IMG/VR virus record: IMGVR_UViG_3300044638_004942
Span: 1-50,788 of that record
DNA from: a virus
Reading direction: 5' to 3' (one strand)
DNA length: 50,788 nucleotides
Shown here: positions 7,965 through 50,786 of the stretch, piece after piece
Layout of the letters: each line of letters begins with the position of its first letter
How positions within the stretch are numbered: the first letter of the stretch is position 1
The notes under the pieces: model-generated
Seen by the model: only the letters and a program-made list of their open reading frames with translations
Database searches by the model: none
What the model was told of the DNA's origin: nothing
Program-made: the position numbers and the translations under genes

Positions 7965-8423
7965 TTAGACATTAGTCGGAATTCCAAGGTACTCGTACGT
8001 TAAATTTTCTCTTGAAAAAATGTCAGTTAATTCCGAAAGTATACTTTTTATATGAGGGCGTATGTCTACGGTGTATCTTATCTTTGGCGGGAAGATTTTT
8101 GCATCCATCTGTCTATGACAAATTGTCATGTCTCCATCCTTAATAAAAATGTTAAATTTTTCAGGACCGTCAGTATTTGATGTTTCAAGCATCATTGGGT
8201 TATGTGTAATCTCGTAAGAATTCTCCAACAAATAAATTGTCGACTTCATTTTTAACTCATACTCTAAAGATTCTTTTAACTCATAAAGATACTCATATAA
8301 CTCAAGCGAATTTTTCGCATCAGAGTTATAATTTCTTACGTTAAAAAATCTTTGGACAATGATGTTGTCGTTAACCATCATTAAAAATTCTAACTTTGTT
8401 ATTTCTTGGTTTTTCATAATCAT
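7965..8423 (-). CDS. Hypothetical protein in the replication operon
   Basis: 152 residues, no family recognised. It is acidic-to-neutral and mixed alpha/beta, with a helical N-terminal half ('LYEYLYELKESLEYELKMKS') and a C-terminus ending 'LTYEYLGIPTNV'. There is no signal peptide or membrane segment. It lies between the RNase H and helicase genes, which in T4-like phages is a place for replication accessory proteins; that is only a positional hint. The start is ATG 8423, 2 bases after the RNase H stop. A second ATG two codons later (8417) is equally possible. Confidence 0.7.
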   Translation of the reverse strand: MIMKNQEITKLEFLMMVNDNIIVQRFFNVRNYNSDAKNSLELYEYLYELKESLEYELKMKSTIYLLENSYEITHNPMMLETSNTDGPEKFNIFIKDGDMTICHRQMDAKIFPPKIRYTVDIRPHIKSILSELTDIFSRENLTYEYLGIPTNV

Positions 8424-8425
8424 TA

Positions 8426-9430
8426 TTATTTTTGTTTATAATTTTTCTTTTCTTTTCTTGTTAATTTTAAAAATGGGGTCAAGAAGTTTACCCAATTATT
8501 ATCCCCTTTAGGTAGATACTTAAAAAACCCATCTTCCATCATCATTTTAATGATATTCCTATGTCCTCTCCCATCTGGGTCTAAAGATTCTGTATAATAT
8601 AATTCTACGAGTGTTTTACCTTCATCGGTAATTAATGGGTTTGATAAGTCTACAATTTTTTCATTGATTTCAAAAAATTCGTTTCCGTAAATTCCTGTTT
8701 TTGTTTTTCCTGACAAAAGATTTTTTAATACTGTATTGTCTTTATCCTCAGACAACAATCTTTCAGCCTTTGATAAAATATCGGTTATATTAACCGTTTC
8801 GTCAAGTATCTCAGGAAATAATTTAATTAAAGTTTTTTCCCCTAAATAATAAATTCCATCAATATTATCGGACTTATCTCCAGATAATATCTTATAGGTT
8901 TTTACGTTCTCATGTGGAATGGAATAGTCGTAGATTTTGATTTTATCCCCGTTCTTATACGTTTGTTTTGCCGATGGGGAATAGACACTCACCTTATCTG
9001 AAATAAGTTGTGTAAGGTCTTTATCTGACGAAAAAATGGTTTTAAACTCGTTGTGAGAAATCTGACAATAGTATGCGATTAAATCATCAGCCTCGTTGTT
9101 AGTAATGTTTATCTGTCTAATAAACATCTCTTCTAAATATTGTTTTACCCTTTCGTTTTGATACTGAAATGAAGTCTCTTTATAAACATTAACTTCCTTT
9201 ACTCTATTTTCTTTGTATCTAGGATAGAGAAGTTTTCTACTTAAAGAATTATCATCTCCATCCCAAAATACAACTACCTTATCAAAATTTTGTTCTTCAA
9301 TAAATCTTCTGATAGTATTTAAAAAATGCCATATACCACCAATATGTTTACCATTATGATAAAAATCTTTTACCCCATGAAATCCAATCTTAAGGAGGTT
9401 ATTCCCATCGACTAATAATGTTTTTATCAC
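8426..9430 (-). CDS. rnh: 5'-3' exonuclease / RNase H-type flap nuclease
   Basis: 334 residues of the PIN-like 5' nuclease (FEN/T4 RNase H) family. It removes RNA primers and 5' flaps on the lagging strand. Acidic metal-binding motifs are in the expected order: 'LLVDGNNLL' at the N-terminus, 'FWDGD' near 55, 'NNEADDLIAYYC' near 112, 'SSDKDLTQL' near 135, and 'ILSGDKSDNIDG', the helix-3-turn DNA-binding region. The start appears to be GTG at 9430: an in-frame TAA immediately precedes it and the protein begins cleanly at the first beta strand. It lies 16 bases after uvsX and is probably cotranscribed with it. Confidence 0.9.
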   Translation of the reverse strand: MIKTLLVDGNNLLKIGFHGVKDFYHNGKHIGGIWHFLNTIRRFIEEQNFDKVVVFWDGDDNSLSRKLLYPRYKENRVKEVNVYKETSFQYQNERVKQYLEEMFIRQINITNNEADDLIAYYCQISHNEFKTIFSSDKDLTQLISDKVSVYSPSAKQTYKNGDKIKIYDYSIPHENVKTYKILSGDKSDNIDGIYYLGEKTLIKLFPEILDETVNITDILSKAERLLSEDKDNTVLKNLLSGKTKTGIYGNEFFEINEKIVDLSNPLITDEGKTLVELYYTESLDPDGRGHRNIIKMMMEDGFFKYLPKGDNNWVNFLTPFLKLTRKEKKNYKQK

Positions 9431-12442: not shown

Positions 12443-15400
12443 TTAAGTAAATTTAAATGTTACTGGAAACAATTTATAAAAATCAGTTCTGCTAGTGTCA
12501 GTAGTTGTCCCGTCAGCTAAAACGGGTTTACTTAACACAGTAATACTAAACGAATAGGTCCCTTTAATATCTGCCGATGATGTACTAAGAATATTACACC
12601 CTACCTCCTCTAATAACGTCTCAATATCTACCGTAAAAGTTTGTTTGTTACTTGAAATTAACGAATTAAGATTATTAAATCCTGCTCCAGTCCCACTACC
12701 ATCCCCACATTCAGAATCAATATTATAATCGAAATGAGCTCCAAATATATTATATAACCCTGTTGACCCATTAACCGTAACCGTTAACTTTTCAAACATT
12801 GGCGGATTTGCCACAGTATAAGAATTAACACCATTTAATGGTACAACAGTATTAGATGGTACGGGTGTTGGTGAAGGTGTCGGTGTTGGTGTCGGTACTA
12901 TCTGCGAGACTCCATTCCAAATATCTAAAGATTTTTGAACTTTAGATTCAATATTAGATAATTGAGTTGGGTCCATAGTGGTGTAAACATTTGAATCATT
13001 TTGTTTTGCCCCAAAATATAATATCCAAAATTTAGTAATCTCTTTTGCCGAATTATTAGGTAAAACAACCATACTGTTTTTCCATTTTTCTAATAAAATT
13101 GTAATATTATTAGTTAAATCATCAAACAATGCGTATGGTAATGTTGTTGTGTCAGATTTTAAACAAAAATAATTTTGTGCTCCGAAATATGTTGACGGTT
13201 TTTCTCCCCAATATTTTGATAAGTCGATACCCGCAAAATTATTTTCATATGCTTCAAACCCTGTCGAAGTTCCTGACTCTAAATATAATGCTGCAAACAC
13301 CGCGTATTTTAATTTACCATCATCAGGAATGTTTCTAGAGGATAATAAATTAACTATCGTATCCTTAACCTCTTTAAAAGTTACCTTACTACTTTGTGGT
13401 GTTATTGGGGTATATCTACTATAGTCTGATGCGGGAGTACAAGCTTGTGTCTGTGTTAACTCTTTACTACCATTAGCGTTTGATACCACTTTATTTTTTT
13501 GAGATATAACGTTTCCACTTGCATCCTTAGTCAATTGTTTTTTCGCCTCTTTGTTTTTAGTAATAATCGATTGTAACAAATTTGTTTTAAGTGATTGTAA
13601 ATACGCATCAATTTTAGGTAACGATGCAATAGGTTGTCTAACCCCTTCAATAATAGTATCAAAATTACCAGGACTTATATTATGATTAACACTTAATATC
13701 ATATATGGTCCACTAAACATTGGGACATGTCTTAAGTTAAAATACATTGTAGGTTGTATCATAGCGTTACCCATCATAGTTATTTGACATCCATAACTCC
13801 TATTTTTATATAAATTATATAAAGATGTACTTTGTGTTGACCCTTTTCTACCTCCACCTTGATTTGCCATCTGATTTAGTATTTCCATCCCTTCCGCAGT
13901 CGCCTTACCAGCACTTTGGTCTACTTGGAAACTTTTAAATATCTGTTGGTTTTGTGGTCCAATATCAACATTAAATCCGACCACCTTATTAGATTTATCC
14001 CAATCTTTTTTACCCACTTGATTTTCGACTAACGGATTATCACTAGCTCTACGTAAATCAAACGCATCATTTCTATAACGATAATCAACATTATTTTTTA
14101 AATCTAATTGTTCACTTGGTTTACCCGCATAAAAACAAACCAATTTTGAAGAGGAATCCCTATAATCAACATTTAAAAAGGTGCCAAACAAATTATTTGC
14201 AAAGTCTGCGGTTCCATCAATTCTTGGTATTGGGTTTTTCACCGCATTTTGTACGTTATAAAAATTAATATATGATGGGATATTCATTACCACAAAATGA
14301 TTTTCAATTAAAATACTTTGGACAAAAGATAACATAGACGCTTTTACAGGTAAGTTTAATAATCTATCCTTTAATTTGTAAACATCGATTAAAACTTTTT
14401 CTCCAATATTCCTACTCGCCCTATCTAATAATAAAACGTCTTCAAATAATGTTTTTGTTTTAAAATCATTTCCTGAAATCCATTTATCATTTAAGGCTTT
14501 AAATGTTTCCCATAATTCAACTTTAGGTTGGTTTCCTTGTAAATCAGACTCGACTTGACCTTCAGTACCAATTGTTGTTGTGGGTAACGATGATTGTAAT
14601 TTAGGTATTAAATTATTAACGATTTTTGATTGAAAATTATTAATATCCAATAAATAATTTGTCATCGCTTTATAAAACGCCCCTTCACCCGCTTTATTTA
14701 TTGGGTTAGGTACTTGGGGATATTCATCTTGTCGAGCAAACACCGTTTCAACAATGAATTGTTTATCAGTAGGTCCTGTAGATAAAGAACCAAAGAATGC
14801 AATGATGGTTTCATTTATTAATGTTTGAGTATTACCTGTGGTTGTTGGCAAAATGCTTGGTAAACTTTCATACAATATAACACCCTCTTTGTTTGATAAA
14901 TATGAAATTTTTTGTGGTCCAACTTGTCTAACCGTAATTGTGTCTCCACTTAAAAGAGTGGTAAATGAAACTTTTTTACTTGGTGATGATATCGGTGCGT
15001 CAGGTGGTGCAATCGGATTACTTTGAAATTGGTTTAACTTCTGAGTTGCATATATTTTTATTACTGTAGCAAATAATTTAATGTTATCCACCGTAAAAGC
15101 AACATTTAAATCCACAAAAAAATCCGTTATATAAGAACCATTGTCATCATAAACTAATTCAGGTATCTCTGAAAATCCCACATAGGTATATAATGTTGAC
15201 CATTCATTAGGATAGTTTGTTTTAGATGTTATTAGTGACACTCCCCCACCATTAGTTGGTATTGCATTAGGTGTCATAACAGTATATGGTTCCCAAGTAT
15301 ATGGGTCAGTTAATGGTAATGATGAAAAAGTATAAAATAGTTTCTTATCATATAAAGACGGATTACCATATTTGAATACGACATCATAATTTAAAAATTG

Positions 15401-18400
15401 TCTTAAAATATTAGTTATATTATTTGTTTGGTCGTCTTGTATTTTTTTTACAATGTTAGACCCAATATCACCTGTCACCTTTGGTATCTTTAATAAACTT
15501 CTAAATAACATCTGAAAGTTTTTAAACGTTAGAGTGGTTTCAGTTTCAGGACTATTTGCTTGATTTGATATGGTACTTGAAACATCAGAAGTACTAACCC
15601 CCAATGCTCCCGCAATAGCGTTTGCCTGTCCAATATCGTTAGTTGAATTATTTGGAGTATAATCGTAAATTGATTTTGAGAATTTTAAAAACTCTGTTTC
15701 AAATCCATCTAAAACATCTTTTTCAAAAACAGATAACATTTCACTCATTTGTGAGTAATCCTTGTCAACACCATTTATTGAGAAATTTTCTTGTTGGCTT
15801 TGTCCTGAGAAAATGTGTTTCATATACGCAAACGGTGAGGGTTTTTTAAGTTTTGACCCATCAAAGTATCCGTAGTTCGGTGCTCCCCAAAATAATCTAA
15901 CAGACCCATCATACATTGCTTGATTTGAGTTTACCTCAAATTTCATTTCGTATGACGACCCACTTGGTTTAAAACATTCATTTTTTGTTTGATTTAAAAG
16001 AGACCCTTGTGACGGCATCAAATATATATATTTTTTATCTAGTGTATCAACACTAACCGACCAAGGAATTATTCTTAAATCTCTTGATGGTATTGTTGGG
16101 TCAAACCCTTCATTAAGACTAATAATTGCATCATCAACGTAATTAATTGAAACTCCTGAGGTTATCCCTGATTGTATTGCACTATCAGTATACCCTGAAA
16201 AAACTTCATACCCTTGACAAAAGACATTGAAGTCGTTTATCAATTTAGGATAAAATCCTGTATTAATTAATGTTGAAATTTCAGACCCAATAGTGGTGTC
16301 TTTTTGTAATACAATATCGATTGGTGCTCCATTAATAATTAACCCATAATTTCGAGTATTTGCACTTGTTACAGGGTCAAAATTGGTCGTATAACTAAAC
16401 CCTGTCCAAGAGGTATCTAATATATCAATATTTTTTTCAACATACATTTTATATCTATGCCAAATAGACCCAAACTTTAATATCCATGCGTAAGGTAATT
16501 TATGTACAGCACCAAATTTCTTAAGAGCCGCAAAAATATAATCTAAATCAGTTGTGGTATTATTATCATACGTTTTAAACTTCTCCCTCATTGTTGCCAA
16601 TGGTAAACTATTAATGAAAAGATATGCAGAAGCGATGAATGGATGTTCATCATTATTTCTGAAATTTTTAACCCCCTCTTGAATTGAGTTGATAAAATAT
16701 GGTGTATTCATTATTGAGGTAGTTTGGTTATCGCTAACCTCCCCACTATAGTTAAAATATCTAACATTCCCTTCAGTAATCAATTGAGTTTCAAAAGTTC
16801 TATTTTGATACCATGTTTTTAAATCCGTTGAATTAATAACATTTGGTGTTTGTCCTGCAAGATAAACAAAGTTAGTTATTGGTCGAATACTATTAGGGGT
16901 GTTTGTGGTAACAAAACTTGTTATTAATTTTATGTTTGGATTATATTTTAAAACTTTAGTAGTATTAAGAGCCCCGTTAGCATCTAAAATTGTTGTCCCA
17001 TTTGCCAAATATGTTTTATCCCAAGTTCTATTAGTAAATGGAAAAGTATCACCTAAATCAAATTTGTTTGATGTTGTGGAATCTTCAATATATTCCGACA
17101 TAGCGATTTCATTTGGCAATGAGACCGATGGTTGTGATTCAGAACTATTTAAAATATTCACATTAATAAATTGGAATCCTCCGTTTGTAACAGTATTTTT
17201 AATGTATGGAGTATTAAAAATTCCTCTAATATAGTTTTGCCAACTTTCTCCTAATCCGCTATTTGAGAATTGTCTTAAGATTGTTGGGAAGTTAGTCGCA
17301 TTAAACCCATACTCTTTTAGTTTTTGAATAATAAAAGGATTATCATTTGATAAACTTTTAACAATGTTATTGTTTTCGGCTTCGGCAATCAGATTAGTAA
17401 TCTTATCTGCATCCGATGTAAATCCATTACTCCTTGATAGTCTTGAGTAGTATGATGTTAAAATTATTCGTTCATAAATCTCAAAGAAAAATTTAACCTC
17501 TTCCTTATTTCCATAAACCCAATTTCCAATTGGGAATTCGATAGCATCTAATGAAACCCTTTGTGGTTGGGTCAATTCATTTGAGTTTGCCGTTGGGTCG
17601 GCAGGAGGTAATGTTCTTTCAGTAAAACCTTTAATAAACTCCTCCACAAATTCTATTTCTGGCCAAACATTGAATAAATACCCCTTACTTCGATTAATAA
17701 TCTTAGGGTCACCTGGATAAGTAATTTCATATTTTTCTTGACCATCTTCTCCTGATGTTTCAACGATTAATTGTGGCCATGGATATACAGGTTCTTTAGA
17801 ATTATCTCCCGAGGAAAGATTATCTGTAGATGCTCCCGCAACTTGTTTGTCAAAAATAATATCTTTTCGATATTTATTATCTCTTTGGTTCCAAGCACTA
17901 GTATGAACATCATCCATCAATCTTAAAAACGCCTCTCCATTAGCAAAAATAACCGCCAAAACATTTCTTATGTTTGGGACAAATCCAATTCCACTGTCCT
18001 TACTTTGTAATAACTTAGATAATGCTTCTGTTAATTCTACCTCAATCTGTTGTTCTTTTTCGGTTAATATTTTGGTTAACTTATCTATTTTATCAACAAA
18101 TCGTTTATTCCCTTCAAAAACATGATAAACATAAATTGGTTGTTGTTTACCGTCACGGTCAACATATTTACCTGAATTAAAATTTTTATTCTTATCTAAC
18201 TCTGCCTGTAGCTCGGTTAAATCAGTTGGGTCTAAAGGTTCTTTATCATTATTTTTTTCCTTAAATGTTGTTACTAAATCAACGTCATTTGATGTTATTT
18301 CTATTGTAAAATCACTATAATCAATATCACAAACTATTTGACATTGTTTGGTTTTATCGTCAATTTTATATGAACCGTTTTTACCAACAGAAGTATTTTC

Positions 18401-19663
18401 ATTTAATTTTGTATTGTATTCCGCGATAAGTTTTTTTAATTCTGAAATAGCGGTATTTTGTTGTTGAAGAGTTTTAAATTCAGGTTTAAATGAATAAATT
18501 TTAGTATCACTATTATTTAAACTAACTCCACTTGATAACATCGACCCTTTCTTTAATACAAAAAAATTTTTCTTATCCATGTACTTATCAAACCAAGATA
18601 CTTTATCAGCATAATAAACATCTTTTTGGTAGGCAATTAATTGACTTCTATACGTGTCAACATTAGTTAATGGGTCTAAATTTTGTTTACTAAAAGAATC
18701 TAAAATATTTTTAATAAAATTCTCAATCCTGTTTTGCATTTGAACAAGAGTCAATTCTGGAAAATCATCAGGAATTAATCCTTTAGTTTTATACTCACTA
18801 TACATCTCCCTAACTTTTTGATATCCTCTTTCATAAATTGTATCGTCAACATTAGAAAATTGGCTTGCATTACCACTTGTTGTCTGTATTTTTACCCTTG
18901 ATTTATACATGTGCGGAGCAGCAATTAAGTATCCCATTGACACTTCACTTAAAATTGTGTACTTGTAAGTTAAAAAATTCAATTCAATATGGAAATTACC
19001 TGAGCTAGTGTTATATCTCGAAGTAAAATCTTTTAACATTATCGGTAATCGAACTGCTTTACCATAATACCCTTTTATAGTTAAATAAAATAGTGGATAC
19101 GGTAAATTAAAAAACGCGGCATAAGGTGAATTATCACCACCTTCAAATAACGCCCTTCCTTTTATGTCCTCCATAGATATATGAATGGTTGACATAAACG
19201 AAGTGTTTTGTCTTATAGAAATACTTGTAATACCTAACAATCCATTATCAGTCGAACCTGGTTTACCACCTGAGTTAATTGTTTGTCTGATATAAAAATC
19301 GGTATCGTTTTTAGGGTTGGTTACTGAGGTCTGTTTTGGTTGGTTAACTCCCTTCCCTTGAATGGTGTCTTTTCCTGTGAACTCATCGGTGTATTCATTA
19401 TCCAAAAAAGTCTTTCCCGCAGGCTTTAAAAAATTCATAGACGCCACTGAAATAGTTTGGATGGCATCATTACTTGCGGTTCCCACGGATAACTTAGTCC
19501 TTGGAAGAACTTTACACTCCAAATTGGCATACATTACTAAGTCTTCTTGTCTAACATGTCTGTCAGAGGCAACACCTTGCTCGTCAACAACTTTGTTTGG
19601 GTCAATTATTGTAATGTTATTGTAGTCGAGTTCGACCAATATGTTTTCTGGTTTACCTACCAT
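12443..19663 (-). CDS. Giant baseplate hub-like tail protein with C-terminal murein-hydrolase-like domain
   Basis: 2406 residues. The N-terminal 250 residues and a region near 1900-2030 ('SYGCQITMMGNAMIQPTMYF', 'VPMFSGPYMILSVNHNISPG') resemble hub proteins of the gp27/gpD type, where an OB-like barrel closes the tube. Residues 2093-2252 (DNA 12908-13387) look like a glucosaminidase/lysozyme-type domain: 'AALYLESGTSTGFEAYENNF' carries a candidate catalytic Glu, then 'NNFAGIDL'. A Pro/Thr linker (2254-2268) and a beta domain of about 135 residues close the protein. The T4 gp27 and gp5 lysozyme functions may thus be joined in one chain. The start is ATG 19663, overlapping the gp53-like gene by 11 bases. 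The structural role is fairly sure; hub and hydrolase assignments are inference. Confidence 0.75.
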   Translation of the reverse strand: MVGKPENILVELDYNNITIIDPNKVVDEQGVASDRHVRQEDLVMYANLECKVLPRTKLSVGTASNDAIQTISVASMNFLKPAGKTFLDNEYTDEFTGKDTIQGKGVNQPKQTSVTNPKNDTDFYIRQTINSGGKPGSTDNGLLGITSISIRQNTSFMSTIHISMEDIKGRALFEGGDNSPYAAFFNLPYPLFYLTIKGYYGKAVRLPIMLKDFTSRYNTSSGNFHIELNFLTYKYTILSEVSMGYLIAAPHMYKSRVKIQTTSGNASQFSNVDDTIYERGYQKVREMYSEYKTKGLIPDDFPELTLVQMQNRIENFIKNILDSFSKQNLDPLTNVDTYRSQLIAYQKDVYYADKVSWFDKYMDKKNFFVLKKGSMLSSGVSLNNSDTKIYSFKPEFKTLQQQNTAISELKKLIAEYNTKLNENTSVGKNGSYKIDDKTKQCQIVCDIDYSDFTIEITSNDVDLVTTFKEKNNDKEPLDPTDLTELQAELDKNKNFNSGKYVDRDGKQQPIYVYHVFEGNKRFVDKIDKLTKILTEKEQQIEVELTEALSKLLQSKDSGIGFVPNIRNVLAVIFANGEAFLRLMDDVHTSAWNQRDNKYRKDIIFDKQVAGASTDNLSSGDNSKEPVYPWPQLIVETSGEDGQEKYEITYPGDPKIINRSKGYLFNVWPEIEFVEEFIKGFTERTLPPADPTANSNELTQPQRVSLDAIEFPIGNWVYGNKEEVKFFFEIYERIILTSYYSRLSRSNGFTSDADKITNLIAEAENNNIVKSLSNDNPFIIQKLKEYGFNATNFPTILRQFSNSGLGESWQNYIRGIFNTPYIKNTVTNGGFQFINVNILNSSESQPSVSLPNEIAMSEYIEDSTTSNKFDLGDTFPFTNRTWDKTYLANGTTILDANGALNTTKVLKYNPNIKLITSFVTTNTPNSIRPITNFVYLAGQTPNVINSTDLKTWYQNRTFETQLITEGNVRYFNYSGEVSDNQTTSIMNTPYFINSIQEGVKNFRNNDEHPFIASAYLFINSLPLATMREKFKTYDNNTTTDLDYIFAALKKFGAVHKLPYAWILKFGSIWHRYKMYVEKNIDILDTSWTGFSYTTNFDPVTSANTRNYGLIINGAPIDIVLQKDTTIGSEISTLINTGFYPKLINDFNVFCQGYEVFSGYTDSAIQSGITSGVSINYVDDAIISLNEGFDPTIPSRDLRIIPWSVSVDTLDKKYIYLMPSQGSLLNQTKNECFKPSGSSYEMKFEVNSNQAMYDGSVRLFWGAPNYGYFDGSKLKKPSPFAYMKHIFSGQSQQENFSINGVDKDYSQMSEMLSVFEKDVLDGFETEFLKFSKSIYDYTPNNSTNDIGQANAIAGALGVSTSDVSSTISNQANSPETETTLTFKNFQMLFRSLLKIPKVTGDIGSNIVKKIQDDQTNNITNILRQFLNYDVVFKYGNPSLYDKKLFYTFSSLPLTDPYTWEPYTVMTPNAIPTNGGGVSLITSKTNYPNEWSTLYTYVGFSEIPELVYDDNGSYITDFFVDLNVAFTVDNIKLFATVIKIYATQKLNQFQSNPIAPPDAPISSPSKKVSFTTLLSGDTITVRQVGPQKISYLSNKEGVILYESLPSILPTTTGNTQTLINETIIAFFGSLSTGPTDKQFIVETVFARQDEYPQVPNPINKAGEGAFYKAMTNYLLDINNFQSKIVNNLIPKLQSSLPTTTIGTEGQVESDLQGNQPKVELWETFKALNDKWISGNDFKTKTLFEDVLLLDRASRNIGEKVLIDVYKLKDRLLNLPVKASMLSFVQSILIENHFVVMNIPSYINFYNVQNAVKNPIPRIDGTADFANNLFGTFLNVDYRDSSSKLVCFYAGKPSEQLDLKNNVDYRYRNDAFDLRRASDNPLVENQVGKKDWDKSNKVVGFNVDIGPQNQQIFKSFQVDQSAGKATAEGMEILNQMANQGGGRKGSTQSTSLYNLYKNRSYGCQITMMGNAMIQPTMYFNLRHVPMFSGPYMILSVNHNISPGNFDTIIEGVRQPIASLPKIDAYLQSLKTNLLQSIITKNKEAKKQLTKDASGNVISQKNKVVSNANGSKELTQTQACTPASDYSRYTPITPQSSKVTFKEVKDTIVNLLSSRNIPDDGKLKYAVFAALYLESGTSTGFEAYENNFAGIDLSKYWGEKPSTYFGAQNYFCLKSDTTTLPYALFDDLTNNITILLEKWKNSMVVLPNNSAKEITKFWILYFGAKQNDSNVYTTMDPTQLSNIESKVQKSLDIWNGVSQIVPTPTPTPSPTPVPSNTVVPLNGVNSYTVANPPMFEKLTVTVNGSTGLYNIFGAHFDYNIDSECGDGSGTGAGFNNLNSLISSNKQTFTVDIETLLEEVGCNILSTSSADIKGTYSFSITVLSKPVLADGTTTDTSRTDFYKLFPVTFKFT

Positions 19664-27929: not shown

Positions 27930-29510
27930 TTAATTAGTATATTCCCATCTAATATTTCCACAATCATATATCCTATAAATTTTTCGGTTAAACATAATTT
28001 GTTGTTCCGTCATATTTTTATCAAACCCATCTTTAACTAATATCGACTTTCTATACCCAAATCTATGTTTTCTTAAGTCATTAACAACATACCAATAATT
28101 TGGTTTTGATTGGGATATCTTTTTAAATTCTAATTTATTATACATTCCTCCATCAAATATTCTAATATCTGAATATGATATAATTTTATCTGGTTGATAT
28201 GTTTTAACAAAATATTTTAATAATTTTGATGCCCCACCAATTACATTATGATTTAATAAATTACAAAAACGATTTAACTCCCACTCGGTATCTTTACCCC
28301 CCATTATAATTCTACCTTTTGAAAAGGTCATAACAGAAACTAATGTTTCATCTTTAAATAACCCTAATTTTATTTTTGAATTAACATTTCCTTGGATATG
28401 ATTATCGTTTAAAAATTTAGTTGAGACTTTTGAGGTAATTTCTTTTACCACACAATGTCTACCATAAATTTTATTTTTAATTAACCCAAATTTACCTGTT
28501 AATATTGATTTAACAATTTCTTTTTTATATAACCATTCATCCTCAAAAATATGGATAAGTTTTATTCCATTTTCTTCACAATCAATCGTTTTTTGTAAAT
28601 GATAATTTTTACTTTTAAATAATTCATTATGCCAATAAACCCCATTTATTTCAATACCAATATTAAACTTCGGTAAAAATATATCCATTTCAGTTTTTTT
28701 ATTTGGTATCTTTTTGTTTGTTTCGTAATCAATGTTGAATTTTTCTAAAAAATCACAAATTTCATTTTCATACCCACTTCTATTTGAAGAACCGATAGGG
28801 TTACATTTAGAACAAACGATATAATTTCTTTTATACCTTTCATACAGTAATTGTTTTGATAATTCAGATGTTTCATTACATATGAAGCATGAAACGGTTA
28901 GAGATTCTTTCTTTATGTCAATAAAAGTGATATCAGGATATAACTCTTTAAAGGTTTTAATAATTTTATTTTTATAGTTATTAGTTTTACTATAATTTTC
29001 ATTACCATACTTTTCTAAACAAGTTTGTTTATATTTTTCAAAATTATTATAATTTTTATCACCATATTTTTCAACTCTCGTTTTTCGATTTTTTTCAAGA
29101 TTATTATAATTTTCATCACCAAATTTAATTAACTTGGTTTCTTTTTGTTTAATCATAAAATCTTTATGTTGAGGATAAAAATCAATCCCGTATTTTTTTT
29201 GGAAGGTTTCTTTTTGTCTTTTAACCATTTCCAATTTGTTACCATTAATACATTTTAAAGAACAAAATTCACCATATGGATTATCAAATCTATTTCTAAA
29301 TTTTAATCCCGAATTACAAGTAAGACATTTTGGTCTTTCCGAAAGATTATTATAATAAAACCATATTTTTTCTTTAAAAGTTAATTCCAAAGAAATGTTA
29401 ATAGAATAATCTATTATTTTTTGATATAATTGGGGATGATTATTTGATAACCATTTTTCAGTTGTTTTATATCCCGACTTATTATCTGTTGTAAAAAAAG
29501 TAAAATCCAT
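27930..29510 (-). mobile_element. Free-standing homing endonuclease, Vsr-like (EDxHD-type)
   Basis: 526-residue coding gene. Order of parts: a Cys4 zinc element (C62, C65, C83, C87); three to four repeats of the 'KYGDKNYNNFEKYKQT' type (residues about 100-178), as found in phage homing enzymes; a second Cys4 zinc element (C208, C211, C233, C236); and a nuclease domain near 247-330 with 'TEMDIFLPKFNIGIEINGVY', 'WHNE' and 'LIHIFEDEW', typical of the Vsr-related EDxHD family. A DNA-binding-like tail of about 190 residues ends the chain. It would cut phage DNA lacking the gene and spread by repair. It is inserted between the tail tube and gp26-like genes and has its own TATTTAT motif. It is markedly richer in Lys and Asn than its neighbours. 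Confidence 0.85.
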
Positions 29511-31054: not shown

Positions 31055-34000
31055 TTAGATATTATCAAACGATGCACCTGTTGGAGTGATATAGAATGTG
31101 ATATCTATAAATTCTAACGATTTAGTTGGTTTAATATAGATTTTACCTGTCATTTGATTTCTATCCAAGTCAGCAACATCTGAAGAAACTGTTACACGGA
31201 AATCGTATAAACCTCTGTCTCTTCTAATTGCGTCTAAGATGGGGTTAACCGCGTCTAAGAAATCTTGTCTTACTTTTTCATCGTTTTGTTCAAACAATAA
31301 TCTTACTGAAACCGCAGATATTAATTTACGAGCTTGTAACAATAATCTTCTTACGTTGATTCTATCAAGAGCAGATTCTCTAATTTGCATGGTCTTGTTA
31401 CCCCAAATTACAGTTCCAACATCAGAGAAGGTTGCGATTGGGTTAATTCTACCTTTATAAAGAACGTCTCTATCTTCTTGAGTAAGTTTCTTTCTCGCTT
31501 TGATAGCACTTACGATACCACGAGTGTAACCCGCCGCAGCGAACCAAGGGAAAGCAATATTATCCGTTAACGCCAAGTTTCTTGTTACCTCAGCCGTAGC
31601 AGGTATATAGATTTGAGTGTTGTTTACAGTATCTCTTGTTAAAACCCATGGGTAATAAGTTGCCGTGTAGTTTGAGTCGATACCCGCAGTTTCCAAATTG
31701 TCTACCGCTTCTTGTGGATAAATTAAATCTAATTGGTCACCCGTTGACGGAACAAACATGTTGTAGTCAGGTGTTGTACAGATATAAACTGAATCCGCTC
31801 TATTGAACTCAATCATTTCAATTGCATCACCCACTAAGTCAGAGTGATTAATATAATCAATACCTGGTGTAACGAATACGTTAATATTAACCGCCTCAGG
31901 GTTAGAGAATGTTTGTTGTCCTAATAAGTAAGCGTAATAGTCGGTGTTTGCCCAATCTTGTCCGTTGTCACCAACAGTGATTTGTTTAAACGCTCCCCAT
32001 CCTGTAGCCGTTGGGTATTTGAATGAAGGACATGCTCCATTTCTATAACCAATTCTACCTAATACGAATCTATCCGCATTTGTTCTGTGTTCAGTATAGA
32101 TATCCCATCCGTCAAATCCTCCACGACATAATAACGAGAATTTACGTGCGTATAATCTATAATACGGATTCGCTTCGTTATCAGGGTCTGAAGTAAATGG
32201 TGCAGAACCTACATAGAAAGCCGGTGTACCACTTGTTGAGAAGTAACTTGGTATTGTAATACCACTTGCATTGATGTCCATATGGAATCCTCTTGTTCGG
32301 AAAGCCCATTCATCTCCTGAAACGTCTGTACAAACATCTAATGGTAATTGTTTACCTTTATATGTGTAAAAATCAACGTCAAAACCAACCGTATCAGAAA
32401 TACCAAGATAAGTTCTACGAACATTATCACCATTACTTCTTATGATATCATCAGCACCTGATGATAAACCAAACGGTGGATTATAAACTATTTCACCAGG
32501 AAAATCATATTTTGTTTTATAAATTGGGAATGGAGGTCTAACACCAGCATATTCTCTAAAATTATATCCCTCAAATCCACAAGGTAATGCGTCCACGGGA
32601 GCATCCTCGTTAAGTTCAATCATAACGTATTTAGAATTCAATGCGTATTCTCCATCTAATGTACCAATTTTTTTAGCGATAAAACTATTATCATTAGGGT
32701 CCATAGAACAGTTAGTGAATTTTTCAAGAACTACAGGACTATTATCTGAGTCAAAGAAATCTCTAACAATTACATCAAAAGTACCATTATTAAACGAGAT
32801 ATTAGCAATTGAAAGTTTAACTTCAATATTCGCGTCGTCACCATCAGCAATTGTTGTAAACTTAAATAAGTTGTATACTTTATTACCTCTTAATTCAGAT
32901 ACAACCCATGGTGACACAGGTGATTGATATTTTTCAAGATACCAAGCGATTGAAGTTGGGTCAACTCCTTGTCTTGCGTTAGGTAATGCCGTTAACTCAC
33001 AACTTAATCCTCTAATAAATCCTTTTCTCCAACCATAAGTTAATAATGCTTGGAATCTTTCCTCAACAAATAAAGGAACTACTGTTCTTGGTTTTGCAAA
33101 ATTAGATTGTCCAAACACTTTAGAAATGTACTTACTATCTGAATTTGATAATGATGTTTCAAAGAAGAACGGATTACCGTCTTTATCTGTCACATTAATA
33201 CCAAATGTTGAGAATGGGTTTTTGGTTACACCTGAATACGTTCCTGTACAATCTAATTGTACATCATGACCGTCAAATTGATTGTATCCGTTAACTCCAC
33301 CTGGTACTTCATATACCGCACCGTCATCACTACCATAAGTTGCCAATCCTCTTGAACGTAAGGTCGCAACAACTAAATCATCAAAATCGGTAAATGCCGT
33401 ACCTTTGTATATGTAAATTTGTCCTGTTAAATTACCTGTAAAACATTTTGTTGGTGTTGGTAATGTTGTTGTTGTTGTTGTTCCTGTTGGTGTTGGGTTA
33501 CAAGGGTCAGGTGTTGGTGTTGGTGTTGGTAACGTACTAGTTGTTGTTGTAGTACTAATTATTTCAGTTAAATCCGTAACGATTGACCAAAAAGAATAAC
33601 CACTATAAACCGCATTTCCTACATTATCAAATAATGCGTAATACCAAGGGTCATTTTGTGGTGCTGCATAGTTAATCATTGTCTCATCAACACTTTCAAC
33701 ATTAAACACATTTGTTTCCGCAGTAAAGATAGGTGAAAGTGAATTATATACATCACCTGAAATTGGTCCATAATAATAAATTGAAGAGACTTCAGTTGAT
33801 GGAGTATTCATAATATCAAAAATTTGATTTGTCATATCTTGATATAATGTTCCAGTACTACCATTAAAGTTCTCATATGGTAAGTTTAATTTTGCAGCAA
33901 TTTCTGATGGGATAGGACCTGTAAATGAAATACTATTAACACTATCGGTACAACCTGTAAATGGAATTGAGTAACTAATAACATTAGGTAATGTACATTC

Positions 34001-34405
34001 AAAAACACAATTAACTGTTTCACCTGATATACAATCGAATTCAACTGTTGTCGGATTAACGTTTGCCTTTGTGGTAATTGACCAAGATGGGCCCGCATCA
34101 TAACCTGATAAACCTAATACTCTTGTTACAAACAATTGGTTAGATTGTTGTAAGTAAGCTTTAGCGATATACGCCGCTTCATATTTAGGAATTTGTGTGT
34201 TTATGAATTTTTCAGGAGATGTTCCTCCGAAATATGCTGAAAACTCATCGAAGTTTCTGATAAAGATAGGTTCGAAAGCGGGACCTTTTTGAGTCTCACC
34301 AACAATACCTAAAGTTGTAACACCTACACTTTGTGCCACAAAACTCAAATCAACTTCAGAGGTATACACTCCAGGAGACACGAATACTTTGTTGTTTGTT
34401 GCCAT
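31055..34405 (-). CDS. 18: Tail sheath protein, gp18-like (oversized)
   Basis: 1116 residues from ATG 34405. The N-terminus 'VFVSPGVYTSEVDLSFVAQS' followed by 'GIVGETQKGPAFEPIFIRNF' and the C-terminal block 'TMQIRESALDRINVRRLLLQ' with 'FRVTVSSDVADLDRNQMTGK' are classical contractile sheath sequences. T4 gp18 has 659 residues; the extra length is in the middle, including a Thr/Pro-rich stretch near residues 280-325 ('TTTTSTLPTPTPTPDPCNPT') that likely links a surface-exposed domain. An upstream TTG at 34465 extends the frame, but the added residues are Ile/Lys-rich leader sequence containing the promoter motif, so ATG 34405 is chosen. It is followed by a strong terminator. Confidence 0.92.
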   Translation of the reverse strand: MATNNKVFVSPGVYTSEVDLSFVAQSVGVTTLGIVGETQKGPAFEPIFIRNFDEFSAYFGGTSPEKFINTQIPKYEAAYIAKAYLQQSNQLFVTRVLGLSGYDAGPSWSITTKANVNPTTVEFDCISGETVNCVFECTLPNVISYSIPFTGCTDSVNSISFTGPIPSEIAAKLNLPYENFNGSTGTLYQDMTNQIFDIMNTPSTEVSSIYYYGPISGDVYNSLSPIFTAETNVFNVESVDETMINYAAPQNDPWYYALFDNVGNAVYSGYSFWSIVTDLTEIISTTTTTSTLPTPTPTPDPCNPTPTGTTTTTTLPTPTKCFTGNLTGQIYIYKGTAFTDFDDLVVATLRSRGLATYGSDDGAVYEVPGGVNGYNQFDGHDVQLDCTGTYSGVTKNPFSTFGINVTDKDGNPFFFETSLSNSDSKYISKVFGQSNFAKPRTVVPLFVEERFQALLTYGWRKGFIRGLSCELTALPNARQGVDPTSIAWYLEKYQSPVSPWVVSELRGNKVYNLFKFTTIADGDDANIEVKLSIANISFNNGTFDVIVRDFFDSDNSPVVLEKFTNCSMDPNDNSFIAKKIGTLDGEYALNSKYVMIELNEDAPVDALPCGFEGYNFREYAGVRPPFPIYKTKYDFPGEIVYNPPFGLSSGADDIIRSNGDNVRRTYLGISDTVGFDVDFYTYKGKQLPLDVCTDVSGDEWAFRTRGFHMDINASGITIPSYFSTSGTPAFYVGSAPFTSDPDNEANPYYRLYARKFSLLCRGGFDGWDIYTEHRTNADRFVLGRIGYRNGACPSFKYPTATGWGAFKQITVGDNGQDWANTDYYAYLLGQQTFSNPEAVNINVFVTPGIDYINHSDLVGDAIEMIEFNRADSVYICTTPDYNMFVPSTGDQLDLIYPQEAVDNLETAGIDSNYTATYYPWVLTRDTVNNTQIYIPATAEVTRNLALTDNIAFPWFAAAGYTRGIVSAIKARKKLTQEDRDVLYKGRINPIATFSDVGTVIWGNKTMQIRESALDRINVRRLLLQARKLISAVSVRLLFEQNDEKVRQDFLDAVNPILDAIRRDRGLYDFRVTVSSDVADLDRNQMTGKIYIKPTKSLEFIDITFYITPTGASFDNI

Positions 34406-34442
34406 TATTTTTTTTCTTTTAGCTTGTTTATTTATTTTATAG

Positions 34443-34449
34443 ATAAATA
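34443..34449 (-). promoter_or_regulatory. Candidate late promoter motif for the sheath
   Basis: TAATATTTATCTATAAAAT on the sense strand, 37 bases before the sheath ATG. It points away from a second copy at 34487-34493, forming a divergent pair. Confidence 0.45.
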
Positions 34450-34486
34450 TTAGAAAAAAAACCAAAATACTTTACTTTGTAGTAAG

Positions 34487-47972: not shown

Positions 47973-49049
47973 TTAGTCAATAGGTAATCCCGACTTATAA
48001 TCAACAGTTATATTACTCCACCCAATACCAAATTCATATTTCATAACTTTATCAACAACAACATATGATTCAAATTGTGTTGTACCCGAACTAACATCAC
48101 TATTAATGAAAATACCACTTAAAAAATATACATCATTTGTGGTGTTTCCTGTTGTTGCTAACGGTAAATTTGCAATAATATAATCATAAGCGTCATCTCT
48201 AATTATTTGTGTTGCCAATATCATTTGTTTATTATAGACTTCTTCAGTAGTGCCTGTAAAATTTGATAATGAATATTTGTGTGGCCATAAAATATCAGTT
48301 AATTTCCAAAAAGAATAATTACCATTGTCAAATGGTGGATTTTCTATATTTGGAGCATTAGTTAATACATTTACAACTTGGTCAATTGCTCCCGCAACTG
48401 CACCACAGGTATTATCAGTTAAACTATTTGCTTTACCTCTTCTTAACATTCTACCTGAACGTCCATCTTCAGTAACACCAATGTGTGGAGTACTTGTTAC
48501 AAACAAAGTTCCACCAAGAGTTGTTGCTACGTGACTTGCAAATGCTCCAAATCCGACACTACCAACAAACGGATAACCTGCCAATCCACCTGACATAAAT
48601 GGTCCTAAGAAAGAATTAATACTTGTTGGCCATCCACCGATATTTCCAGGTAAATATGCAGCATCCACATCATCAGAACAAATACCTTCAGCTAAAACAA
48701 TATCAGTTGATGGTATTCCTTCATTTGTGATATACTCTGTTGTATATGTTCCCCATACTTCAGATAATACCGCTCCTGAGAATGGTTGTACTCCTCCGTC
48801 AACGGTAACAGTTCTTACTGTTTGAGTATATGCACTCTGACCTGTTAATGGTGCTGGTACAATTATTTCATATGTTCTATCATATAATGGAACGTCTAAT
48901 TCGTATGTTCCATAAGGATAATCCGAAATATTATCAAATGGTATTACTTCAGACCCTAAATCAATGGTTCCACCCGTTGTGGGTAAAAAAGTAACATTTG
49001 CCGTAAGCCCTGATAAATTTGTGCTTGTTATTCTAATTCCTTGTATCAT
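47973..49049 (-). CDS. LCIB/C-type beta-carbonic-anhydrase-like protein with virion-type N-terminal domain
   Basis: 358 residues. Residues about 1-95 form a beta domain like those of fibre proteins ('GTYELDVPLYDRTYEIIVPA'). Residues about 115-330 match my memory of LCIB/C proteins (limiting-CO2-inducible, related to beta-carbonic anhydrases): 'GICSDDVDAAYLPGN' (C124, D126, D127), 'GGLAGYPFVGSVGFGAFASH', 'TPHIGVTEDGRSGRMLRRGK' (H189, R200) and 'NTCGAVAGA' (C215). C124, H189 and C215 are the expected zinc ligands, with an Asp/Arg pair in the active site. The family interconverts CO2 and bicarbonate, though some members are inactive. It lies between two fibre-type genes, so it may be virion-borne. 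Activity and location are inference. Confidence 0.72.
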   Translation of the reverse strand: MIQGIRITSTNLSGLTANVTFLPTTGGTIDLGSEVIPFDNISDYPYGTYELDVPLYDRTYEIIVPAPLTGQSAYTQTVRTVTVDGGVQPFSGAVLSEVWGTYTTEYITNEGIPSTDIVLAEGICSDDVDAAYLPGNIGGWPTSINSFLGPFMSGGLAGYPFVGSVGFGAFASHVATTLGGTLFVTSTPHIGVTEDGRSGRMLRRGKANSLTDNTCGAVAGAIDQVVNVLTNAPNIENPPFDNGNYSFWKLTDILWPHKYSLSNFTGTTEEVYNKQMILATQIIRDDAYDYIIANLPLATTGNTTNDVYFLSGIFINSDVSSGTTQFESYVVVDKVMKYEFGIGWSNITVDYKSGLPID

Positions 49050-49076: not shown

Positions 49077-50786
49077 TTATAATATTAAACCGAAATTCAA
49101 ATCATTTTCTGGTATGTCTAATGCGTTTAACCCACCTAAACAAGGAGCTTCAGTTAATGTTTCTATTGTTAGAACATCCACTTCATCGTAATACGATAAT
49201 CTATTATCTCCATTTTTATTTTTGAATACATTAACTGTTGTGATATCATATAACATACCCGTACTTAAACAAACATTATTAACTTCGGTATTAACAATAT
49301 TCCATTGGAATGAATCACCTACTTCATTACTCTGAAAATTATCGGAAATAGTATTATTGTAAAAGTATTCACCAATAGTATTATTTTCAAAATAGTTTCC
49401 AATTCTATTTCCTTGAGAAGATGGACCACCAAAACCAAATCCATCTTGTACCTCATTATAATTGAAATTAGTTCCTATTGTGTTATATGCGAATGAACCA
49501 TAACAATTATTATTTTCAAAATAGCTTCCAATTCTATTACCCTTAAAAATATACGTTCCAATAGTTAAGTTGGGTCCAATTGTATTATTATAAAAAACGT
49601 GTTCAATATTATTTTCGTAGAAAACTGAATATACCGTATTACCATTATATCCATTCCCAATTAAATTACGATAAAATTGTGAATAACTTTCATTTTGATT
49701 ATATCCATTACCAATATCATTATTATAGAAGTCATTATAAATTTTATTATTATTAAACTGATTTCCTATTTCATTATTTTGAAAATCTGAATTAGTCCAA
49801 ACATTATCCTCAAAGTTATTCCCAATATTGTTTCTGTAAAAAGAACCACCTAGTAAAATATTATTGTTAAAATCACTACCAATTCTGTTGTTATTAAAAT
49901 TAGAGGTAATATAGTTGTTATTAAAATTTTCACCAATTATATTACCGTCAAAATCATCATTCGTTGAGTTGTTATAAAAATCACCACCTATTTGATTATT
50001 ATCACAATTATTATTAAATGTGTTATTATAAGAACCGTCACCAATGGTGTTGTTTATGTATGACCCTGAAATAAAGACATTGTTTGCCAAAATAAATGGG
50101 TTCCCAAACCACCCAAGTGATAAATTTGAGTAGTTACCAACATAGTTGTTAATTGCGTCACTAAATGTTGTGTATTCGTAAACTTGGTCTTGTCTTAGAT
50201 TAGGTTGGTAATAACTCATTACACCATCATCATTTCCAGAATAATAAGGTGAGTCGGTAGTTACACTTATTGTTACACCTGATATAATCGCCAAAGAATT
50301 GCTCACAACAGATATAACTTCAAAAAATGAAGGACTTAAATTTCGTATCGAAACAATCGACCCTGAACCAAAATTTGAGTTAAATGTTGTACCAGTATTA
50401 CCATATAATACACCAGTTGTCCCTGTTAAACCACTTATTCCAACAAGACCACCTAATGGACTATTTTCGTTATATGAATATCCACGATATCTTTTAAATA
50501 AAATACTTCTGTTATCATAATCAGTTCTATTATTAAAGTTATCAATTCTTTCAGTAATTCTACCTTTAGCGGGACTGCTGGTTACTTCAGTTGTGTTCCA
50601 AGTTATATCGTATGTTATTCTATCTTGAGGATATAGTGTTGAATAAACGGTAGGTGAAAACCCTGTTGTAGATATTGCCAATAATAAAATTGGCTCTGTT
50701 GTTCCTGTTTTATAGTTACCCGTTGTTATTGGGGTTTTAGTATTATCATAATTTGGTTGGTCGTAACACGTTTGGAAGTCAATCAT
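49077..50786 (-). CDS. Fibre/spike protein with nonapeptide beta-solenoid
   Basis: 569 residues from ATG 50786, two bases from the window edge, so the true start may lie outside. Residues 1-240 are beta-rich. Residues about 242-498 consist of roughly 28 nonapeptide units of the type 'DFYNNDIGN', with aromatic residues and an Asn pair at fixed positions, which should fold as a right-handed beta-solenoid with Asn ladders. About 70 non-repeat residues ('LSTGMLYDITTVNVFKNKNG') close the protein. Such solenoids are typical of phage spikes and receptor-binding fibres. No enzymatic motif is seen. It is the first gene of the appendage cluster in this window. Confidence 0.75.
   Translation of the reverse strand: MIDFQTCYDQPNYDNTKTPITTGNYKTGTTEPILLLAISTTGFSPTVYSTLYPQDRITYDITWNTTEVTSSPAKGRITERIDNFNNRTDYDNRSILFKRYRGYSYNENSPLGGLVGISGLTGTTGVLYGNTGTTFNSNFGSGSIVSIRNLSPSFFEVISVVSNSLAIISGVTISVTTDSPYYSGNDDGVMSYYQPNLRQDQVYEYTTFSDAINNYVGNYSNLSLGWFGNPFILANNVFISGSYINNTIGDGSYNNTFNNNCDNNQIGGDFYNNSTNDDFDGNIIGENFNNNYITSNFNNNRIGSDFNNNILLGGSFYRNNIGNNFEDNVWTNSDFQNNEIGNQFNNNKIYNDFYNNDIGNGYNQNESYSQFYRNLIGNGYNGNTVYSVFYENNIEHVFYNNTIGPNLTIGTYIFKGNRIGSYFENNNCYGSFAYNTIGTNFNYNEVQDGFGFGGPSSQGNRIGNYFENNTIGEYFYNNTISDNFQSNEVGDSFQWNIVNTEVNNVCLSTGMLYDITTVNVFKNKNGDNRLSYYDEVDVLTIETLTEAPCLGGLNALDIPENDLNFGLIL
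49287..50063 (-). repeat. Array of about 28 degenerate 27-base units (xFxNNxIGx)
   Basis: Codes for the beta-solenoid of the spike-like protein. Units diverge in sequence but keep the aromatic, Asn-Asn and Ile-Gly positions. The period is mostly nine residues, with a few ten-residue and interrupted units (for example near residues 405-415 and 450-458). Confidence 0.75.

Follow-up and report, generated by a model that had tools for sequence, protein, structure and literature searches.

The LCIB family of carbonic anhydrases is known from algal CO2-concentrating mechanisms. Its LCIB/LCIC-type beta-carbonic anhydrases (PF18599; PtLCIB4 5b5y, 6kfs, Chlamydomonas LCIB 5k5w, LCIC 5b5x) are algal or bacterial. 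The family also has cellular members in Bacteroidota, Spirochaetota and Chloroflexota; these stand alone, being about 231 aa long and free of added modules.

Most enzymes known from phage fibres cleave or alter surface polymers. A carbonic anhydrase fold of the alpha type, with its zinc site lost, is found in the vaccinia virus protein D8. This protein is an envelope adhesin that binds chondroitin sulfate (PMC4256255). Regarding architecture, the head fibres gp21 and gp29 of phage crAss001, encoded in the structural gene region, combine a short N-terminal capsid-binding part with a displayed C-terminal domain (PMC10172136). The gp29 fibre is dimeric, as proteins of the beta-carbonic anhydrase type usually are.

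The stretch of DNA analysed here (the window), a virus record of 50.8 kb, represents part of the genome of a contractile-tail phage. Its genes include those for sheath, tube and baseplate proteins, for replication and for ribonucleotide reductase. This phage, an uncultured one from freshwater, carries an algal-type LCIB carbonic anhydrase on an apparent virion fibre protein, as do about a hundred relatives. The phage copies share with LCIB and LCIC the family, the fold of the whole domain and the aligned zinc and catalytic residues, and PtLCIB4 likewise has Ser after the zinc Cys. They differ in forming a phage-only clade, in being fused to fibre-type modules and in being encoded by tailed phages. 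With the stand-alone cellular proteins they have the invariant residues C124, D126, H173, H189, R203 and C215 in common, but these proteins belong to a separate clade and, among those sampled, have E at position 127 and usually F at 125. The likeness to D8 would lie in a carbonic anhydrase fold displayed on the virion within a surface-binding protein. However, D8 has an unrelated carbonic anhydrase fold and belongs to an animal virus, whereas the beta-type LCIB domain of the phages keeps the full catalytic set. The displayed domain of gp29 differs in being Ig-like rather than LCIB.

LCIB/C family membership and fold

The product of the minus-strand gene listed first in Table 1 is a true member of the LCIB/C beta-carbonic anhydrase family. 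The original prediction had proposed this membership from the motifs C124-S-D-D, H189-I-G, C215-G-A and GGLAGYPF...GFGAF, all of which lie at the positions it gave, and the profile search bears it out: residues 103-333 of the 358-aa product match Pfam PF18599 (LCIB_C_CA) with 97.8 bits (cut-off 25; E 7.5e-28). Eight further phage proteins score 84.7-115.5 bits on the same profile. A phmmer search of the PDB with the 358-aa protein returned 6kfs as the best match (E 1.2e-13), with PtLCIB4 at 9e-10; the related PDB sequences are eight in number, every one of them LCIB-type. Identity between the LCIB domain of the window and the solved homologues is about 22%.

The AlphaFold2 model in use was built from 69 phage and cellular sequences and has a mean pLDDT of 81, with most of the domain above 85. 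Its weak regions are the N-terminal domain and loop 130-136 (pLDDT <50), which is close to the C124 loop. It superseded an earlier AlphaFold model from 33 close sequences, which was poor at residues 121-178 and better for the N-terminal domain. Residues 71-352 match 6kfs and PtLCIB4 at Z 26, with an rmsd of 2.3 A over 237-242 residues. The Chlamydomonas proteins LCIB and LCIC follow at Z 20, and then the classical beta-carbonic anhydrases at Z 10-12. The Pfam, PDB and fold matches rule out a chance or convergent motif. Like its relatives, the LCIB domain is probably dimeric. Among the viral structures of BFVD, neither AlphaFold model has a match at E <0.001.

Table 1. Features of the LCIB gene and its neighbours in the window.
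Feature	Position	Strand	Basis or remark
LCIB gene, CDS 358 aa, ATG start	47973..49049	-	N-terminal beta domain + LCIB/C-type beta-carbonic anhydrase domain
N-terminal domain, residues 1-66, exchangeable module (N1 type)	48852..49049	-	Occurs without LCIB in other fibre-cluster proteins
LCIB/C beta-carbonic anhydrase domain, residues 71-352	47994..48839	-	PF18599; Z 26.5 to 6kfs, 26.3 to PtLCIB4
C124-S125-D126, putative zinc Cys + beta-carbonic anhydrase C-x-D motif	48672..48680	-	Aligns with PtLCIB4 C-S47-D
H173, equivalent of PtLCIB4 H88	48531..48533	-	Alignment; 78/78 phage copies
H189, putative zinc His	48483..48485	-	Alignment; 78/78 phage copies
R203, invariant Arg	48441..48443	-	78/78 phage copies
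C215, putative second zinc Cys	48405..48407	-	Alignment; 78/78 phage copies
Next downstream neighbour, fibre-like protein, 404 aa	46738..47952	-	C-terminal domain of its family fused to LCIB in L117
Upstream fibre-cluster protein with NNNxIG repeats	49077..50786	-	5' end lost at contig edge; relatives 643-857 aa

Modules, gene context and distribution

In nearly all phage copies, the LCIB domain is preceded by an additional N-terminal module; these modules are of several kinds and fall into eight unrelated clusters. Modules N1, N3 and N7/N8 also head non-LCIB proteins of the same gene clusters; the N1 type of the window occurs without LCIB in fibre-cluster proteins of L106, L104, L067, L328, L321 and L293. 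The N-terminal domain of the window is 66% identical to residues 1-68 of the L328 protein, which then continues with about 620 aa unrelated to LCIB. This L328 gene (1875-3956) and its counterpart in L321 (412-2472) each encode the window-type N-terminal domain joined to an unknown sequence of about 620 aa that has no Pfam match. In L053/L054, the LCIB domain is nested within a 776-aa protein. The C-terminal domain of the L117 LCIB protein weakly but significantly resembles that of the family of the downstream neighbour in the window (C5_L117 against L057 1437-2417, E 8e-5). The proposal of a modular protein within a fibre cluster thus agrees with the modules common to non-LCIB fibre-cluster proteins and with the domain swap seen in L328. 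The more specific likeness of the N-terminal beta domain to neighbouring fibre proteins holds for the fibre clusters of related phages, but not for the complete neighbours within the window. PHROGs and Pfam searches of the N-terminal modules gave no named family, and tblastn of four N-terminal types against INPHARED gave weak matches only, those of the N7 type often being tail fibre genes at E ~1.

The surroundings of the gene are structural in several phages. In L221, a head-tail adaptor gene lies on one side of it and the tail sheath and tube genes on the other; in L133 and L187 it comes downstream of the major head protein gene, and in L186 a tail fibre gene precedes it by a few genes. In a crAss-like group, with a major capsid protein (MCP) related to Crassvirales and a portal of phrog_6547, it follows the MCP gene by a few genes; IMG/VR contigs with LCIB in this portal-MCP structural module are L182, L178, L179, L175, L204, L189 and L169. 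By analogy with crAss001, the LCIB protein of this group could form a head fibre that bears an enzyme domain. No sequence similarity was found between its N-terminus and crAss001 gp21/gp29 or known head fibre N-termini. An exception to the structural context is the 202-kb phage L166, whose two tandem copies have no recognisable structural genes beside them.

A further comparison concerns the slot upstream of the DNA polymerase gene. Among 80 polymerase-matched relatives, 47 have at least 3 kb upstream of this gene, and three of these 47 carry LCIB there. Other relatives have LamG-like, repeat or unknown fibre genes in the slot, including lectin-like LamG genes in L282. Since its content varies among relatives, the slot behaves as an exchangeable receptor-contact cassette. 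Beside the polymerase gene of the related phage L268, the fibre slot holds a papain-family cysteine protease gene (8236-8919; PF00112, 28.7 bits), and genes that look glycosyltransferase-like from their sequence are found among the upstream fibre cluster in L077, L211, L264 and L310. Domain swapping and gene context make an indirect but strong case for placing the phage LCIB proteins on the virion.

By its DNA polymerase, the window phage comes closest to phages of Salinibacter and Nostoc/Anabaena; by its tail tube protein, to a Microcystis phage, an uncultured phage, and phages of Rhodothermus and Flavobacterium. Its host is likely a member of the Bacteroidota. Three other minus-strand genes of the window deserve mention. 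The tail sheath protein (31055-34465) has 1136 aa, of which the best family match spans only residues ~845-1134; compared with the 576-aa sheath of L221, it has a very large N-terminal extension or insertion. A 2406-aa protein (12443-19663) has no PHROGs match, and a homing endonuclease-like gene (27930-29510; phrog_3339) sits between the baseplate hub and tail tube genes.

Three scans of IMG/VR gave 61, 77 and at least 80 loci (101 confirmed in the third), with much overlap among scans; several counts were drawn from related contigs and hence are not independent. The phage LCIB domains form a single monophyletic clade (support 100/100); the cellular LCIB proteins of Bacteroidota, Spirochaetota and Chloroflexota fall outside it, and the separating branch has a length of 1.47 changes per site. 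The family is present in 25 of 247 sampled Bacteroidota genomes and in one of 121 Chloroflexota genomes, each sample including the genome on which the search was centred. Searched with three LCIB variants, the cultured phages in INPHARED gave no LCIB domain, and the literature on LCIB with phage, or on carbonic anhydrase with tail fiber or jumbo phage, yielded nothing relevant. Tandem LCIB gene pairs occur in L127/L166 (L166 8001-10067), L168 (7998-10122), L186 (7851-9889) and L193 (6856-8906). By analogy with LCIB/LCIC, the tandem pairs perhaps form heterodimers.

Active-site residues and selection

The active site was compared across 78 distinct phage proteins, 77 of which span every active-site position, the 78th ending at a contig edge. 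The proposed zinc residues C124, H189 and C215 occur in the expected order and are invariant in the phage copies; in the alignment, the zinc His and the second Cys of PtLCIB4 stand opposite H189 and C215, respectively. The full C-D-H-H-R-C set (124/126/173/189/203/215) is present in 77/77 phage proteins covering all sites, and the same six residues are invariant across the 69 phage and cellular sequences, 28 of them cellular. Of the D126/R200 pair named in the original prediction, D126 stands (77/77). R200 is kept in only 50/78 phage copies and is excluded as the catalytic Arg in favour of R203. The invariant H173 was absent from the earlier residue list. Position 125, after the zinc Cys, is Ser in 72/77 phage proteins, or Ala. 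PDB titles record that S47R and H88A variants of PtLCIB4 were crystallised. Residues characteristic of the phage clade itself are W/F99-G100, D127, D129 and P188.

The LCIB domain is under purifying selection according to codon comparisons, with an omega of 0.20 over the domain and the lowest dN/dS (0.00-0.13) in the four active-site segments. Conserved residues are not proof of activity, because Chlamydomonas LCIB and LCIC have the fold and the zinc site, yet are inactive in vitro (PMC8825250). For the diatom proteins PtLCIB3 and PtLCIB4, apparently constitutive activity has been reported (PMC9614477), and the phage proteins resemble these rather than LCIB/LCIC in having Ser/Ala after the zinc Cys. 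The invariant catalytic set, an S125 of the PtLCIB4 type and the low active-site dN/dS favour retained chemistry over a bare scaffold.

Competing readings of the phage LCIB proteins

The best explanation, considered rather probable, is an exchangeable virion fibre or decoration domain whose zinc beta-carbonic anhydrase site has been kept by selection and which would act on CO2/HCO3-, or bind a ligand in that site, at the cell surface. The small N-terminal beta domain would serve for mounting, as a module that several of the fibre-cluster proteins in these phages have in common. The distal two thirds would be an LCIB-type domain with a putative Cys-His-Cys zinc site and the C-x-D, His and Arg catalytic set, mounted where relatives mount other distal fibre domains, that is, in an exchangeable adhesin slot. 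A working or near-working zinc pocket for CO2/bicarbonate would thereby be presented at the host surface. The likeliest chemistry would be reversible CO2 hydration on contact with a respiring cell, altering local pH and bicarbonate, or else bicarbonate binding as a cue. Candidate benefits to the phage, all speculative, include local acidification, a cue for a respiring host and pocket-based receptor contact. Retained zinc chemistry is favoured because every copy keeps the full site; from the sequences, we infer virion presence, zinc binding and activity of the LCIB protein.

The main rival holds that the fold has been reused for adhesion, as a receptor-binding module whose zinc site is structural or part of a ligand pocket, with no meaningful carbonic anhydrase activity. 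The variable slot, which elsewhere holds lectin-like LamG genes, the precedent of D8 for a carbonic anhydrase fold as a virion adhesin (PMC4256255) and the site retained without activity in Chlamydomonas LCIB (PMC8825250) all speak for it. However, a pure scaffold should have lost some of the six residues over 77 proteins and many fibre types, and none has been lost; dN/dS is also lowest precisely in the active-site segments. Adhesion without catalysis is thus a serious but unlikely reading.

An intracellular enzyme that shifts the carbon or pH balance of the host during infection, outside the virion, would suit a metabolic enzyme family whose cellular relatives are stand-alone proteins of ~231 aa. 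Such an auxiliary metabolic role is improbable, given the extra N-terminal modules on almost all phage copies, several of them common to fibre proteins, the placement of the genes in structural modules and the nesting of the L053 domain in a 776-aa protein. Beta-carbonic anhydrase-like folds also occur in carbonyl sulfide (COS) and CS2 hydrolases. A comparable change of substrate in the phage clade, to which its long branch and its own conserved residues could point, is very improbable: all residues matched to the PtLCIB4 site are retained, and there are no grounds for expecting such substrates at a cell surface.

The preferred reading of a virion-borne zinc domain can be widened to the proposal that several tailed-phage lineages, both contractile-tail phages related to those of Bacteroidota and crAss-like phages, equip their tail or head fibres with a catalytically active LCIB carbonic anhydrase and, when adsorbing, exploit CO2/bicarbonate chemistry at the host surface, an undescribed virion activity. 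This proposal is tentative and is regarded as possible rather than probable. The genes suggest that phage particles may expose a CO2/bicarbonate enzyme or the binding pocket of one. For the LCIB family, they add a clade from uncultured phages that is both old and diverse. A conserved carbonic anhydrase on fibres, if true, would bring a new kind of chemistry to the contact between phage and host, or provide a trigger or receptor pocket dependent on bicarbonate. Either outcome would be informative: an active enzyme, or a second carbonic anhydrase fold recruited to a virion surface after vaccinia D8.
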